Below, in pieces: positions 5,389 to 10,249 of a stretch of DNA of 64,000 nucleotides. Every line of letters begins with the position of its first letter. Position 1 is the first letter of the stretch. The position numbers were made by a program, and so were the translations under genes. Origin of the DNA: Thauera sp. 28 (GTDB lineage: Bacteria > Pseudomonadota > Gammaproteobacteria > Burkholderiales > Rhodocyclaceae). The stretch covers positions 62,001-126,000 of the forward strand of contig NZ_AMXA01000005.1 of NCBI RefSeq assembly GCF_000310145.2. The letters run 5' to 3'. The notes below the pieces were generated by a model. The model did no database searches and was not told the origin of the DNA. It was given only the letters and a program-made list of their open reading frames with translations.

Positions 5389-5592
5389 TCAGCCGCCGCC
5401 GACCGCGACGACAATTTCGAGCCTGTCGCCGTCGGCGAGTTTCACCTCTGCGTGACGAGCCTTGGGCACGATCTCGCCGTTGCGCTCGACCGCGAGGCGC
5501 TTGCCGGCGAGCCCGCGGGCCTCGAGCAGGGTGAGCACGGTGAGATCGGGAGCCAGCATCTCGGGCTGGCCGTTGAGGATGACCTGGATCAT
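5389..5592 (-). CDS. thiS: Sulfur carrier protein ThiS
   Basis: The 67-residue ubiquitin-like protein ends in Gly-Gly (VAVGGG). The terminal glycine is adenylated and thiocarboxylated to deliver sulfur to ThiG for thiazole synthesis. The internal segment [12 protein letters not shown] is the usual ThiS beta-grasp strand. It is the first gene of a thiS-thiG-trmB minus-strand run. The 185-base space upstream is shared with the divergent metX leader. No THI-box (TPP riboswitch) sequence was seen in it. Confidence 0.93.
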
Positions 5593-5639
5593 GGTGTTCG
5601 GAGGTATCGGCGGGCAAAAATCTTATCACGCCAGCGCGT

Positions 5640-5668
5640 TTGACTTTTGGCTGGCCCGGCGCTAACTT
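5640..5668 (+). promoter_or_regulatory. Candidate sigma-70 promoter for the metX leader
   Basis: A good -35 element, TTGACT (5640-5645), is followed by a 17-base spacer and a weak -10, TAACTT (5663-5668). Transcription from it would begin just before the riboswitch-like structure at 5678. The -10 matches poorly, so the exact start is uncertain. Confidence 0.35.
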
Positions 5669-5677
5669 CCATCCACC

Positions 5678-5733
5678 TAGCGCCGATTTGATCAACAGCT
5701 TGCGGGCGCTCAACAAATACGGCTAAAGCGAGG
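5678..5733 (+). promoter_or_regulatory. SAM-II riboswitch aptamer upstream of metX
   Basis: Hairpin P1 is formed by AGCGCC (5679-5684) and GGCGCT (5705-5710). The loop segment ATTTG (5686-5690) is complementary to CAAAT (5714-5718) downstream, giving the H-type pseudoknot of SAM-II. AGC at 5697-5699 can pair with GCT at 5722-5724. The conserved tail GGCTAAAG (5721-5728) is present. Layout and the conserved bases match the SAM-II class, which senses S-adenosylmethionine and usually precedes metX-type genes. It is followed at once by an intrinsic terminator, so control here is probably transcriptional. Confidence 0.82.
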
Positions 5734-5735
5734 GC

Positions 5736-5774
5736 ACCCAGTCCGCGTTTGCAGCCGACTGGGTTTTTGTTTTT
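5736..5774 (+). terminator. Intrinsic terminator in the metX leader
   Basis: A perfect 8-base inverted repeat, ACCCAGTC (5736-5743) and GACTGGGT (5757-5764), is followed by TTTTGTTTTT. It ends a few bases before the metX ATG and directly after the SAM-II aptamer. It is best read as the regulated terminator of the riboswitch: SAM binding would allow it to form and stop metX transcription. Confidence 0.75.
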
Positions 5775-5778
5775 GCAG

Positions 5779-6915
5779 ATGACGAAGATGATCCCTCCCC
5801 AATCGGTCGGCGTGGTCACGCCGCAGCGGGCCGAGTTCACCACGCCGCTTGCGCTGCGCGGCGGCGGCACGCTGGACAGCTACCACCTCATCTACGAGAC
5901 CTACGGCACGCTCAATGCCGAGCGCAGCAACGCGGTGCTGGTATGCCATGCATTGTCGGGTTCGCACCATGTTGCCGGCACCTACGCCGACGCGCCGCAC
6001 AATGTCGGCTGGTGGGACAACCTGGTCGGTCCGGGCAAGCCGCTCGACACGCGCAAGTTCTTCGTCATCGGGGTGAATAACCTCGGTGGCTGCTACGGCT
6101 CGTCCGGCCCCAACCAGATCAACCCCGCCACCGGCAAGCTGTGGGGCGCAGACTTCCCCTTCGTCACCGTCGAGGACTGGGTGGAGTCGCAGGCTCGCCT
6201 GGCCGACCAGCTCGGCATCCGCCGCTTCGCCGCGGTGGTGGGCGGCTCGCTCGGTGGCATGCAGGCGATGTCGTGGGCGCTGCAGTATCCCGAGCGCGTC
6301 GGCCATGTGGCGGTGATCGCCGCCGCACCCAAGCTCACCGCGCAGAACATCGCCTTCAACGAGGTGGCGCGGCAGGCCATCCTGACCGACCCCGAGTTCC
6401 ACGGCGGCCACTACTACGAGCACGGCGTGGTGCCGGCGCGCGGGCTCAAGCTGGCGCGCATGGTGGGCCACATCACCTACCTGTCCGACGATTCGATGGC
6501 GGAGAAATTCGGCCGCAGCCTGCGCCACGGCCGCAACACCTACAGCTACGACGTCGAGTTCGAGATCGAATCCTACCTGCGCTACCAGGGCGACAAGTTC
6601 GCCGGCTACTTCGACGCCAACACCTACCTGCTGACCACCAAGGCGCTCGACTACTTCGACCCCGCTTTCGAATACGGCGGCAACCTGGACGCAGCCCTGG
6701 CGCGCGCCACGGCCGACTTCCTGGTGGTGTCGTTCACCACCGACTGGCGCTTCTCGCCCGCACGCTCGCGCGAGATCGTCTACGCGCTGCTGCACAACAA
6801 GCGCAACGTCAGCTACGCCGAGATCGACTGCCCGGCCGGCCACGACTCCTTCCTGCTCGACGAGACGCGCTACCACAAGCTGCTGTCGGCCTGGTTCGAC
6901 CGCATAGAGGTATAA
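5779..6915 (+). CDS. metX: Homoserine O-acyltransferase MetX
   Basis: The 378-residue alpha/beta-hydrolase acylates homoserine (acetyl- or succinyl-CoA dependent), the first committed step of methionine synthesis. It has the nucleophile elbow GGSLGGMQA (catalytic Ser), DWRFSPARS with the acidic residue, and the catalytic His in CPAGHDSFL. The N-terminal [10 protein letters not shown] and [11 protein letters not shown] segments are typical MetX. Start ATG 5779 follows the leader terminator; no clear Shine-Dalgarno is visible, and ATG 5788 is an alternative. The length matches the MetX family. metW follows after one base. Whether acetyl- or succinyl-CoA is preferred cannot be told from this reading. 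Confidence 0.95.
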
Positions 6916-6916
6916 G

Positions 6917-7507
6917 ATGACTGCGTACCGCTACGACTACGACGTGATCACCCAGTGGATCGAGCCCGGCGAGAAAGTGCTCGACCTCGGCTGCGGCGAC
7001 GGCGAACTACTGCGTCACCTGATGGAGGTCCGCCAGGTCCAGGGCTATGGCGTGGAGAACGACCCCGACAAGCTGCTCGGCAGCGTGAGGAACGGGGTGA
7101 ATGTGATCCAGATGGACCTGGAAAAAGGCCTCGTCGGGCTCGAAGACGGCTTCTTCGACCACGTCATCATGAGTCTGTCGCTACAGGCCATGCACAACAC
7201 CCAGGGCATCCTGCGCGAAATGCTGCGCGTGGGCCGCGAGGCGGTGGTGAGCTTTCCCAACTTCGGCTACTGGCGCCACCGCCAGAGCATCCTGAACGGC
7301 CGCATGCCGGTATCGGAGAGCCTGCCGCACCAGTGGTTCAACACGCCCAACGTGCGCTTCTTCACCATCGCCGACTTCGACGCCCTGTGCGAGATCAATG
7401 GCATCGCGGTGCGCGAGCGGCTGGCCTTCGACGAGGGCAAGCTGGTGCTGGAGGAACCCAACTTCCTCGCCAGTGTTGCGGTCTACCGGCTCGGCCTCGA
7501 GCGCTGA
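6917..7507 (+). CDS. metW: Methionine biosynthesis protein MetW
   Basis: The 196-residue protein has a class I SAM-methyltransferase fold with the motif VLDLGCGDGELL at about residues 18-29. MetW partners MetX in many proteobacteria and is required for, or stimulates, homoserine acylation. The gene begins one base after the metX stop, so the two are translated from the same riboswitch-controlled message. A strong hairpin lies just after its stop. The fold and the pairing with metX make the call secure; its catalytic role, if any, is unknown. Confidence 0.95.
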   Translation: MTAYRYDYDVITQWIEPGEKVLDLGCGDGELLRHLMEVRQVQGYGVENDPDKLLGSVRNGVNVIQMDLEKGLVGLEDGFFDHVIMSLSLQAMHNTQGILREMLRVGREAVVSFPNFGYWRHRQSILNGRMPVSESLPHQWFNTPNVRFFTIADFDALCEINGIAVRERLAFDEGKLVLEEPNFLASVAVYRLGLER

Positions 7508-7510
7508 AAC

Positions 7511-7540
7511 GAACTGCGGGGGCAGCCGCCCCCGCAGTTC
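7511..7540. terminator. Perfect 13-bp hairpin after metW
   Basis: GAACTGCGGGGGC (7511-7523) and its exact complement (7528-7540) flank a 4-base loop. It lies four bases after the metW stop and 30 bases after the end of the convergent gene. There is no T-tract on the plus strand, so it may act as a bidirectional or Rho-assisted terminator. Confidence 0.6.
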
Positions 7541-7570
7541 CTTACCCGCAGCAGCCGGGTGACCTGTCGT

Positions 7571-7888
7571 TCAGCCCACCACGAACGAAACGACGTCGAC
7601 ACGAACGGCAGGACGGTCAAGCGCCGCCGCAACGACGACGGCAAACTTCTTGGCCCACTCGGCGCCCTGCTCGAAACGGCTCTCGCCGCCGTACTTGGCC
7701 ACGTTGAGGATCATGTCGAGCACGAGCACCTTGCCCATCGGGTTCGACGGCGTACACTCGAGCGCCTCGAACTCCTTGGCCAACCAGCCACGCGCCTGAT
7801 CCTTGGTCACGGCGGCAACCTCGCTCTCGTGCAACGAGAACTCATACTCACGCTCGGCGCCGAAAACGACGGTCACGTTATAGGACAT
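7571..7888 (-). CDS. Conserved-looking small protein of unknown function
   Basis: The 105-residue product begins MSYNVTVVFGAEREYEF. The start at 7888 is set by an excellent GAGGAGGAAG ribosome binding site; the frame continues upstream but has no further credible start. It is soluble with no signal peptide, cysteine motif or recognised domain. The alternating hydrophobic/charged pattern suggests a compact alpha/beta fold. It stands alone between the metW terminator and the divergent GGDEF-EAL gene. I do not recognise the family. Confidence 0.75.
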   Translation of the reverse strand: MSYNVTVVFGAEREYEFSLHESEVAAVTKDQARGWLAKEFEALECTPSNPMGKVLVLDMILNVAKYGGESRFEQGAEWAKKFAVVVAAALDRPAVRVDVVSFVVG

Positions 7889-8089
7889 GCAGACTTCCTC
7901 CTCGAAGCATTGGGTTCGACTGCGCGCATTGTTGGGGCAGATCGCCCCTGATTGCAAGAAAAGTACGGAATTGTGTTGACCTTGTCCGCTTCCGCCCTCC
8001 GCGGGTAACAGCCACCCCTTCATCGGCACGCTCTGGCAAACTGCCGGCGGGCGCATACGCGCCCCACCCGAAGACGCCCTCTAGCCGCC

Positions 8090-10249
8090 ATGCCGCATCA
8101 AACCCCGGACCCCTCGCTGCCCGCCGAGCTGCAGATCGCCTACCTGGGCGGCGTGCTCGACCACCTGCCGCAAGGCATCAGCGTGTTCGACGCCGAACTG
8201 AAGCTGCTGTACTGGAATGCCCACTTTCTCGAGGTGCTCGACCTGCCCGCCGACGCGGTCCATGCCGGCGTACCGTTCGAGGATCTGATCATGTTCCCGG
8301 CTTCGCGCGGCGAGTACGGCCCCGGCGACCCGGTCGAACATGTGCGGGCGCGCAAGGCACTGGCGCTGCGCTTCGAAGCACATCGTTTCGAGCGCACCCG
8401 GCCCAACGGACGTACCCACCTGGTCTCGGGCGAACCCCTGCTGATCGACGGCCAGCTGGCCGGCTTCATCACGACCTACACCGACATCACCGACCGCAAG
8501 CGGATGGAAGAGGCGCTGCAGATCAGCCATGCCCGCCTCAGGAGCATCATCGACAACATTCCCGGCGGCGTCACGCTGTTCGACGACAACCTGCAGCTGC
8601 TCGCGTGCAACGATATGCTGCGCCGACTGCTCGATTTCCCAGACGCCCTGTTCGCCAATGGCCTGCCCTCGCTCGAGACGCTGTTCCGCTTCAACGCCGA
8701 ACGCGGCGAGTACGGACCTGGCGACCCCGAGATCATCGTACGCGACCTGCTGGCGCGCGCGCGCCAGCGCATTCCGCACATCTTCGAGCGCGTGCGCCCG
8801 GATGGCACCGTGCTGCTGATCCAGGGCCAGGCACTGCAGGATGGCAGCTTCGTCACCGTCTATACGGACATCACCGAGCTGCGCCGGGCCGAGGAGCGCC
8901 TGAACCATCTCGCCCACCACGACCCGCTCACCGGGCTCGCCAATCGTCTCACGCTCGACGAACACATGCGCATGCGGGTCGCCGAGGGCACGCGCGACCA
9001 GCGCCGCTTTGCCGTGCTCTTCCTCGACCTCGACCGCTTCAAGACCATCAACGACTCCCTCGGCCACCAGATGGGCGATGCCTTGCTGGTGATGGTTGGT
9101 CGTCGCCTGCACGCCGCGGTGCGACAGACTGATCTCGTCGCGCGCCTGGGGGGCGACGAGTTCGTCGTCGTACTGAGCGCGGTCGAACAGGAAGCAAGCA
9201 TCGCCCACGTCGCGGCGAAGATCCTTACCGCGCTCTCCGCGCCCTACGTCGTCAATGGCGAAGTGCTGCACGCGCCACCCTCGATCGGCATCAGCGTGTT
9301 CCCAGACGACGCACAGGACGCGGTCTCGCTGCTGCGTAACGCCGACACCGCCATGTACCACGCCAAGGCCCAGGGGAGAGCCAACTACCAGTTCTACTCC
9401 GAAGAGCTCAACCGCTCGGCGATGGCACGCCTCGATCTCGAGCGCAAACTGCGCAACGCCGCTGCAGGCGGTGAGTTCGAGCTCTGGTACCAACCCCAGT
9501 ACCGCGCGTGCGACGGCCAGGCGATCGGCGTCGAGGCCTTGCTGCGCTGGCGCCACCCTCAGGACGGATTGATCCCACCCGACCGCTTCATCCCCATCTG
9601 CGAAGACAACGGGATGATCCTCGACATCGGCCGCTGGGTCATGGAGAAAGCCTGCGCTCAGCTCGCCAGCTGGCGCAACGCCGGGCTTGCGCCACTGCGC
9701 ATGGCGATCAATGTCTCTGCCCGCCAGCTGCGCGACACGCGCATCATCGATCTGCTCAGGGCGCAGATCGAGCGTCACGGCATCGGACCGGGCGAACTCG
9801 AGTTCGAGGTCACCGAGAGCAGCGTGATGGAGCGGCCCGACGAAGCCGCTTTCATCCTCGGGCGGATCAAGGCGCTCGGTGTCAGCCTGGCGATCGACGA
9901 CTTCGGCACGGGGCATTCCTCGCTCGCCTACCTCAAGCGCTTCCCGCTCGACCGCCTGAAGATCGACCGCTCCTTCGTATCGGACATCGAGCACGATTGC
10001 AACGACGCAGCCATCGTCTCCGCAGCCATCTCGCTCGCCCATGGGCTCGGCCTCGAGGTCGTCGCCGAAGGCGTGGAGTCCGCCGTGCAGTGGGCGCAGC
10101 TGAAGGCACTTGGCTGCGACGAGCTGCAGGGCTATCACTTCTCGCGCCCGTTGCCGGCCGAGCAGCTCGAACCGCTGCTGCGCGCCGCGCTCAACCTGCC
10201 TGCAGCCGGGGCGACACCTGCTGCCCCCCAGGATCCCGCATGCCCCTAG
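8090..10249 (+). CDS. PAS-PAS-GGDEF-EAL cyclic-di-GMP enzyme
   Basis: The 719-residue cytoplasmic protein has two PAS domains (about 15-130 and 145-265), each opening with the pattern GVLDHLPQGISVFD or NIPGGVTLFDDN typical of PAS-7. A GGDEF domain follows (about 275-440) with an intact RLGGDEFVVVL active site. An EAL domain (about 455-700) has VEALLRWRHP, FEVTESSVM, DDFGTGHSSL and EVVAEGVES. Both catalytic sites look intact, so it could make or degrade c-di-GMP. The sensory input is unknown. It overlaps the next gene by ten bases, which suggests co-transcription. Confidence 0.93.
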   Translation: MPHQTPDPSLPAELQIAYLGGVLDHLPQGISVFDAELKLLYWNAHFLEVLDLPADAVHAGVPFEDLIMFPASRGEYGPGDPVEHVRARKALALRFEAHRFERTRPNGRTHLVSGEPLLIDGQLAGFITTYTDITDRKRMEEALQISHARLRSIIDNIPGGVTLFDDNLQLLACNDMLRRLLDFPDALFANGLPSLETLFRFNAERGEYGPGDPEIIVRDLLARARQRIPHIFERVRPDGTVLLIQGQALQDGSFVTVYTDITELRRAEERLNHLAHHDPLTGLANRLTLDEHMRMRVAEGTRDQRRFAVLFLDLDRFKTINDSLGHQMGDALLVMVGRRLHAAVRQTDLVARLGGDEFVVVLSAVEQEASIAHVAAKILTALSAPYVVNGEVLHAPPSIGISVFPDDAQDAVSLLRNADTAMYHAKAQGRANYQFYSEELNRSAMARLDLERKLRNAAAGGEFELWYQPQYRACDGQAIGVEALLRWRHPQDGLIPPDRFIPICEDNGMILDIGRWVMEKACAQLASWRNAGLAPLRMAINVSARQLRDTRIIDLLRAQIERHGIGPGELEFEVTESSVMERPDEAAFILGRIKALGVSLAIDDFGTGHSSLAYLKRFPLDRLKIDRSFVSDIEHDCNDAAIVSAAISLAHGLGLEVVAEGVESAVQWAQLKALGCDELQGYHFSRPLPAEQLEPLLRAALNLPAAGATPAAPQDPACP

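Follow-up and report, generated by a model that had tools for sequence, protein, structure and literature searches.

The metX-metW pair of the 64,000-nt stretch of Thauera sp. 28 DNA analysed here (the window) is preceded by a short leader, which the initial annotation read as a SAM-II riboswitch coupled to an intrinsic terminator. The question is whether this leader belongs to the SAM-II class and how it could control the genes behind it. The leader is very likely a betaproteobacterial-type SAM-II riboswitch that attenuates the transcription of metX-metW, and this reading is supported by the aptamer match, the covariation of P1, the terminator, the gene context and the enrichment of P2 complements across the branch. 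The genes and the host are as named at first: MetX reaches 673 bits to NF047916 (homoserine O-succinyltransferase MetX), MetW reaches 240.6 bits to TIGR02081, and the closest named MetX (97%) is that of Thauera phenylacetica, a betaproteobacterium. The aptamer lies on the same strand as metX-metW and 5′ of it, that is, in the methionine gene context of SAM-II, the control itself being predicted. The features are collected in Table 1.

Table 1. Predicted features of the metX-metW leader and its genes (window coordinates)
Feature	Positions	Strand	Basis or remark
Likely promoter, TTGACT 5640-5645, 17-nt spacer, TAACTT 5663-5668	5640-5668	+	by eye, unscored
P1 5′ strand, AGCGCC	5679-5684	+	RF00521 alignment, covariation
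L1, GAUUUGAUCAACA, third strand of the SAM-II triplex	5685-5697	+	RF00521 alignment; role as described in PMC5352136
P2 5′ strand, GCUUGC	5698-5703	+	RF00521 alignment, A1
P1 3′ strand, GGCGCU	5705-5710	+	RF00521 alignment, covariation
L3, CAACAAAUACG	5711-5721	+	RF00521 alignment
P2 3′ strand, GCUAAAGC, SAM pocket side	5722-5729	+	RF00521 alignment, A1
Tail, GAGGGC, SD-like, kept in Thauera and Azoarcus relatives	5730-5735	+	aligned leaders
Intrinsic terminator	5736-5774	+	8-bp stem ACCCAGTC 5736-5743/GACTGGGT 5757-5764, loop 5744-5756, T-tract TTTTGTTTTT 5765-5774; -16.3 kcal/mol
metX	5779-6915	+	start at ATG 5779 or, with greater likelihood, at ATG 5788, which is in frame and conserved
metW	6917-7507	+	TIGR02081

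The aptamer and its Rfam score

The search with the SAM-II model of Rfam (RF00521, SAM_alpha), which the initial annotation had proposed, gives a significant match at window positions 5670-5743 (E 3e-4 in a scan restricted to 301 nt), yet its 26.7 bits remain under the curated cut-off of 36 bits, a threshold set by the curators that is no structural feature. Formally, this is the outcome that the annotation had itself named as a refutation. A scan of the full 64-kb window at the gathering threshold returned no match, and a match to RF02932 (11.9 bits, E 5.2) was dismissed as chance. When the whole 4.3-Mb genome is searched with RF00521, the window element ranks second (E 0.001) behind C25:23012-23090(-), which exceeds the cut-off with 37.7 bits, and these two sites stand clear of the third-ranked one (E 0.35).

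Among 61 related genomes, its own included, 45 contain an RF00521 match at E<=0.05 and 9 pass the cut-off; within the genus, a match was read from the tables in 27 of 29 genomes. Since only 70 of the 184 genomes that match at E<=0.01 in a sample of 399 Burkholderiales pass the cut-off, and since the branch has kept its pocket letters and a P1 that covaries, together with its terminator and its place before metX, the score under the cut-off is not decisive; the low value is typical of a coherent branch, and these counts show that the Rfam cut-off hides many betaproteobacterial SAM-II members. The low score is probably due to the absence of the long P2a helix, where the window element has a 4-nt gap against the RF00521 model and departs most from the alphaproteobacterial consensus. 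According to the accessible text of PMC6061858, a P2a of 5 bp occurs in 60% of SAM-II riboswitches, that is, a long P2a is not universal in the class.

A model of the branch itself (R1) was built from 59 aptamers, and it scores the window element, a member of its training set, at 80.3 bits. R1 matches 302 of the 399 Burkholderiales genomes (taken as the same draw as for RF00521) at E<=0.001, a count that covers the superfamily including the metK-type sister described below rather than one branch. Of 80 named metX loci, 74 carry an R1 match of at least 60 bits before metX; in the remainder, the match is weak in L269 and absent in L255, L257, L259, L271 and L273. Both R1 and the metK-type model R2 were partly trained on genomes that were later searched with them. 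In this collection, a metagenome assembly labelled Thiobacillus (L229/L230) shares the metX leader of Zoogloea oleivorans over the stretch compared, which is probably a label error.

The structure was examined in alignment A1, which keeps 59 of the 75 distinct aptamers after the removal of near-duplicates and of the aberrant rows L045:454-521 and L097. The P1 stem described at first is present in the window and is supported by covariation: four of its six pairs show two-sided changes, and the covariation score of 36 cells, against a shuffle mean of 10, was reached by none of 500 shuffles. The pseudoknot helix P2 is paired in 96.9% of cells and five of its six pairs are invariant, an invariance that is partly fixed by the selecting regular expressions, in which CTTGC and CTAAA are set; given this near-invariance, the case for P2 is made by the match to the known class and not by covariation. 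The letters GAUUU, CUUGC and GCUAAA, which we take to be the SAM-contacting nucleotides of the pocket, are nearly invariant across the 59 sequences, and GGCTAAAG was found on inspection at 5721-5728. The match in its proper place and strand, the pocket letters and the P1 covariation bear out the assignment to the SAM-II class.

The pairing of ATTTG with CAAAT, which the annotation took for the pseudoknot, was rejected. These strands are L1 and L3, without covariation between them; the extended helix GCCGAUUUG/CAAAUACGGC (the same letters with flanks, 9 bp) has no two-sided pair change, and two of its pairs are broken, in 35 and 21 of the 59 sequences, respectively. The helix is nonetheless present in the minimum free energy fold. 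In SAM-II, L1 and L3 are described as packing on P2 and P1 (PMC5352136). The unconstrained fold of 5672-5775 is unexceptional (z -1.21; 28 of 200 shuffles fold equally well or better). Judged from its sequence, the window element would be a SAM-II-type aptamer of ordinary kind, predicted to bind SAM.

Proposed attenuation of metX-metW and its alternatives

Immediately 5′ of P1, TTGAC(a/t) and a TA-rich box recur by eye across the aligned named leaders; a consensus promoter scan returned no promoter. At the other end of the aptamer, the perfect 8-bp hairpin and T-run reported by the annotation are present. Of 75 metX leaders (the window's and those of named loci), 69 have a hairpin with T-tract, against 34 of 750 dinucleotide shuffles; a simple terminator scan, limited to loops of 3-8 nt, found none. 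As for the start codon, GCAG stands between the T-run and the ATG at 5779 chosen in the annotation, yet the start of metX is likely ATG 5788, which is conserved in the genus, and several relatives are without the first ATG. It was rightly noted that no Shine–Dalgarno (SD) sequence accompanies the start: ATG 5788 pairs with the 16S tail at -0.1 kcal/mol, and none is seen before ATG 5779.

In the proposed mechanism, transcription would start a few nucleotides 5′ of P1. When SAM is abundant, it would bind the L1/P2 pseudoknot and keep P2 closed, the terminator would form, and RNA polymerase would halt before metX. With little SAM present, P2 would open, and its strands (mainly GGCUAAAGCG) would base-pair with the terminator in its loop and 5′ arm, by which the terminator would be delayed and metX-metW would be made. 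SAM as the ligand, the OFF logic and the transcription start are thus predictions for the window leader. The protection of P1 has been reported to be independent of SAM, and that of P2 and L1 to require it (available text of PMC10907184), so P2, being the ligand-dependent helix, would be the one worth competing with. According to PMC6061858, as far as its text was available, the majority of SAM-II riboswitches are transcriptional.

The terminators of the branch bear on this proposal. At p<=0.05, the terminator complements the P2 5′ strand in 38 of 113 distinct leaders and the P2 3′ strand in 42, each against 3 of 74 control terminators; either strand is matched in 72 of 113 leaders against 6 of 74 controls, where the leaders are related and the counts are therefore not independent events. 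The controls are 74 other terminators from the window and the fetched loci, selected at stricter settings than the leaders (stem of 6 rather than 5, 6 rather than 5 T, energy below -9), and they may include terminators of metK-type leaders, which were left in. Long complements to GGCUAAAGCG or its like are CGUUUUAGCC (L085), CGCUUUAG (L007) and CGUUUUGGC (L026, L038), and CGCAAGCUGA in L076, L081 and L090 is complementary to UCAGCUUGCG. Complementarity to the P1 3′ strand was found in 5 of 113 leaders and 4 of 74 controls, and a pairing of the P1 side with the terminator arm was rejected as a general antiterminator (only 5 of 69 leaders at p<=0.05). A best-of-three-probes statistic, dominated by the GC-rich P1 probe, gave 15 of 113 leaders at p<=0.05, and in nine Zoogloea-like terminators, complements of the P2 3′ strand were not enriched (p 0.36 to 0.93).

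These complements, which are new here for betaproteobacterial SAM-II terminators, point to an antiterminator that competes with the SAM pocket. The branch thereby gains a concrete and testable switching rule: the terminator mimics the partner of the SAM-pocket helix. In the window alone the complementarity is insignificant (P2 3′ strand, -8.7 kcal/mol, p 0.12; 5′ strand, p 0.79; P1 3′ strand, p 0.13), the imperfect pairing being GGCU..AAA..GCG with CGCG-UUU-GC-AGCC, and the chances that the window's own leader uses such an antiterminator appear to be about even.

Another way of control would be a distant SD sequence, in which GAGG at 5730-5733, beside P2, serves a start codon that lies 46-55 nt further on; in read-through mRNA the gap would be bridged by the terminator hairpin, and SAM would block translation too, which could be combined with attenuation. 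The S. meliloti metA leader is described as operating in this manner (accessible part of PMC9373788). Moreover, among the 74 leaders scored for 16S pairing (81 sequences less 7 that lacked a match to the aptamer regex or a start motif), each of the 44 that carry the GAGG tail pairs weakly with the 16S end locally (+1.0 to -3.7 kcal/mol), and the 30 without GAGG span +0.2 to -6.6 kcal/mol and hold all six at or below -4.5. However, this contrast tracks lineages (Thauera and Azoarcus versus Zoogloea and Tepidiphilus), and on reading, some leaders of other families, such as L085 and L094, carry both a GAGG tail and a purine-rich site before a start, so a distant SD is considered rather unlikely, if the strongest of the alternatives.

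It is less probable still that the aptamer affects only translation or RNA stability behind a constitutive terminator that mainly yields a short leader RNA. In S. meliloti, the metA terminator is reported to lower expression in both media, with an antiterminator that could not be predicted (same part of PMC9373788), and the antiterminator pairing of the window is itself weak; against this, the P2 complements enriched in the terminators of the branch argue for attenuation. A SAM-II-like aptamer that has decayed, or that has a ligand other than SAM, would suit the score under the cut-off and the short P2a, and is made very improbable by the retained metX context and by pocket letters that hardly vary over the 59 sequences. 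Chance resemblance without any riboswitch, for which the same score and the unexceptional unconstrained fold could be cited, is negligible in view of conservation, covariation and context.

A sister element before metK

In addition to the SAM-II sites above, R1 finds two further sites in the genome, C25:22893-22959(-), immediately behind the C25 SAM-II, and C41:22838-22920(-). The latter, outside the window, precedes metK (L135 4839-4921(-)) and consists of CCGCCGAGTTAA..GACAACTTGC..GGGCGG, an inserted hairpin, ACTGCTAAAGCGTCGG, a terminator and an SD sequence, with no relevant Rfam match at E<=10. A search of 25 genomes of the genus, in which 21 metK loci were read, showed such a metK-type element before metK at every one of these loci, and of nine loci from other families three have it too. 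Five further metK-type loci were searched in Rfam, four of them giving no SAM-II family match at E<=1; the fifth, L068, reaches 21.4 bits to RF00521. In the metK-type element, P1 and the outer P2a pairs covary; the third strand is mostly GAGUUAA (GAUUUGA in the metX-type), P2a is GAC/GUC, and the inserted hairpin is optional. Some members retain GATTTAA, and the two types intergrade: R1 scores metK-type elements at 26 to 54 bits, some at 57, and the metK-type model R2 scores the window element at 38.5 bits. Of 250 genomes searched in the order, 156 contain R2 matches, a superfamily count whose weak matches include metX-type elements. Among the 38 R2 sites that were read, metK follows 26, two of which were recognised by a variant motif. 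The other 12 have no metK behind them, and nine of these come second in a tandem, after a metX-type element.

According to the available text of PMC4239095, betaproteobacterial metK is under no known methionine regulator, and a literature search over titles and abstract openings met no report of a SAM-II-like metK element in Burkholderia or other betaproteobacteria. The metK sister element without a strong Rfam match thus appears to be new here and is a candidate uncatalogued SAM-sensing RNA. As much speaks for as against a SAM-II superfamily with two branches in Burkholderiales, namely a metX/metZ branch with a P2-strand antiterminator and an uncatalogued metK branch that would supply the missing feedback on SAM synthetase in beta-proteobacteria. 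In this reading, the metK branch also takes second place in SAM-II tandems before other genes and occurs in mobile-looking islands, one of them with a second MetK. The more novel part of the analysis lies in the metK branch and the P2-strand antiterminator rule, beyond the window element itself.

Several side observations concern elements in other surroundings. On C25, an above-cut-off SAM-II with terminator is followed by a metK-type element (L102 9024-9088(-) and 8894-8960(-)); a 55-aa open frame comes next, convergent to brxL (BREX), and no adjoining methionine gene was seen. In another genome (L036, G008:C1), a C5 DNA methyltransferase-like frame was noted by eye 3′ of the same orphan SAM-II. 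In L078, L179, L180, L190, L011 and L119, tandems of metX-type and metK-type elements are followed, also by eye, by a MATE-like efflux protein a few hundred nucleotides on. A mobile-looking island in L101 (G025:C1:2138000-2152000, 5398-9220) holds four elements of SAM-II/SAM-V-like type, all on the same strand and packed into about 2.3 kb; it also encodes a second S-adenosylmethionine synthetase (MetK) and small uncharacterised proteins, and has a weak ribbon-helix-helix match. SAM-V-like matches under the cut-off of 41 bits occur at L079 600-666(-) (33.4 bits) and L101 6972-7040(-) (27.1 bits).

Relation to known systems

SAM-II (RF00521; PMC1273637) shares with the window element P1, L1 with GAUUUG, P2 with CUUGC/GCUAAAG, the methionine gene context, a promoter expected right before P1 and a terminator after P2; the window element differs in its score below the cut-off, in having no long P2a and in a CGAGGG tail in place of AGGCC. 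Terminators behind SAM-II in general (PMC1273637) and in beta-proteobacteria (PMC2258182) are already found in the accessible text of these papers. SAM-V (RF01826) and the tandem SAM-II/SAM-V arrangement (PMC9481103, in the text available) have the same kind of pseudoknot core and a short P2a; unlike the attenuator preferred here, they are described as translational, and RF01826 gives no match to the window at E<=10. The S. meliloti metA SAM-II leader resembles the window in the order of GAGG after the aptamer, terminator and used start codon, and differs in being alphaproteobacterial, in belonging to metA and in an SD-to-start distance of 74 nt, against 46-55 nt here (PMC9373788, part consulted).

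Closest in context is the metXZ element of PMC4239095 (Leyn 2014). In the portion of that paper available, SAM_alpha is given for Rhizobiales and Rhodobacterales only, and a separate novel metXZ element is described in beta-proteobacteria, with metXW or metZ leaders, six named conserved regions, a terminator and a suspected antiterminator. The window likewise has a metXW leader of betaproteobacterial origin, behind which come a terminator hairpin and its U-tract. Unlike the window element, the metXZ element is reported apart from SAM_alpha and its region 3 is given no partner; from that text we read region 3 as the 5′ strand of P2, and region 6 as its 3′ strand. Regions 3 and 4 were suspected there as antiterminator partners, whereas regions 3 and 6 (as read) are enriched here and P1 is not. 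In the papers searched, largely outside subscription journals, no published statement equating the metXZ element with SAM-II was found.

A third relative is Bp2_287 (RF02424, 'Burkholderia sRNA'), which is modelled on the opposite strand and whose consensus resembles the reverse complement of the window element (GCUUUAGC, GCAAGCUG, UCAAAUCG). RF02424 scores 15.9 bits at window 5646-5850(-) and 35.6 bits at L020 1475-1595(+), both below its cut-off of 70. The paper that first described it (PMC3521395, available text) locates it upstream of methionine genes and proposes that it is a cis element. On the basis of these likenesses, Bp2_287 on the opposite strand, SAM_alpha and the metXZ element are inferred to be one element seen in three ways, and if so, three separate entries would become one.
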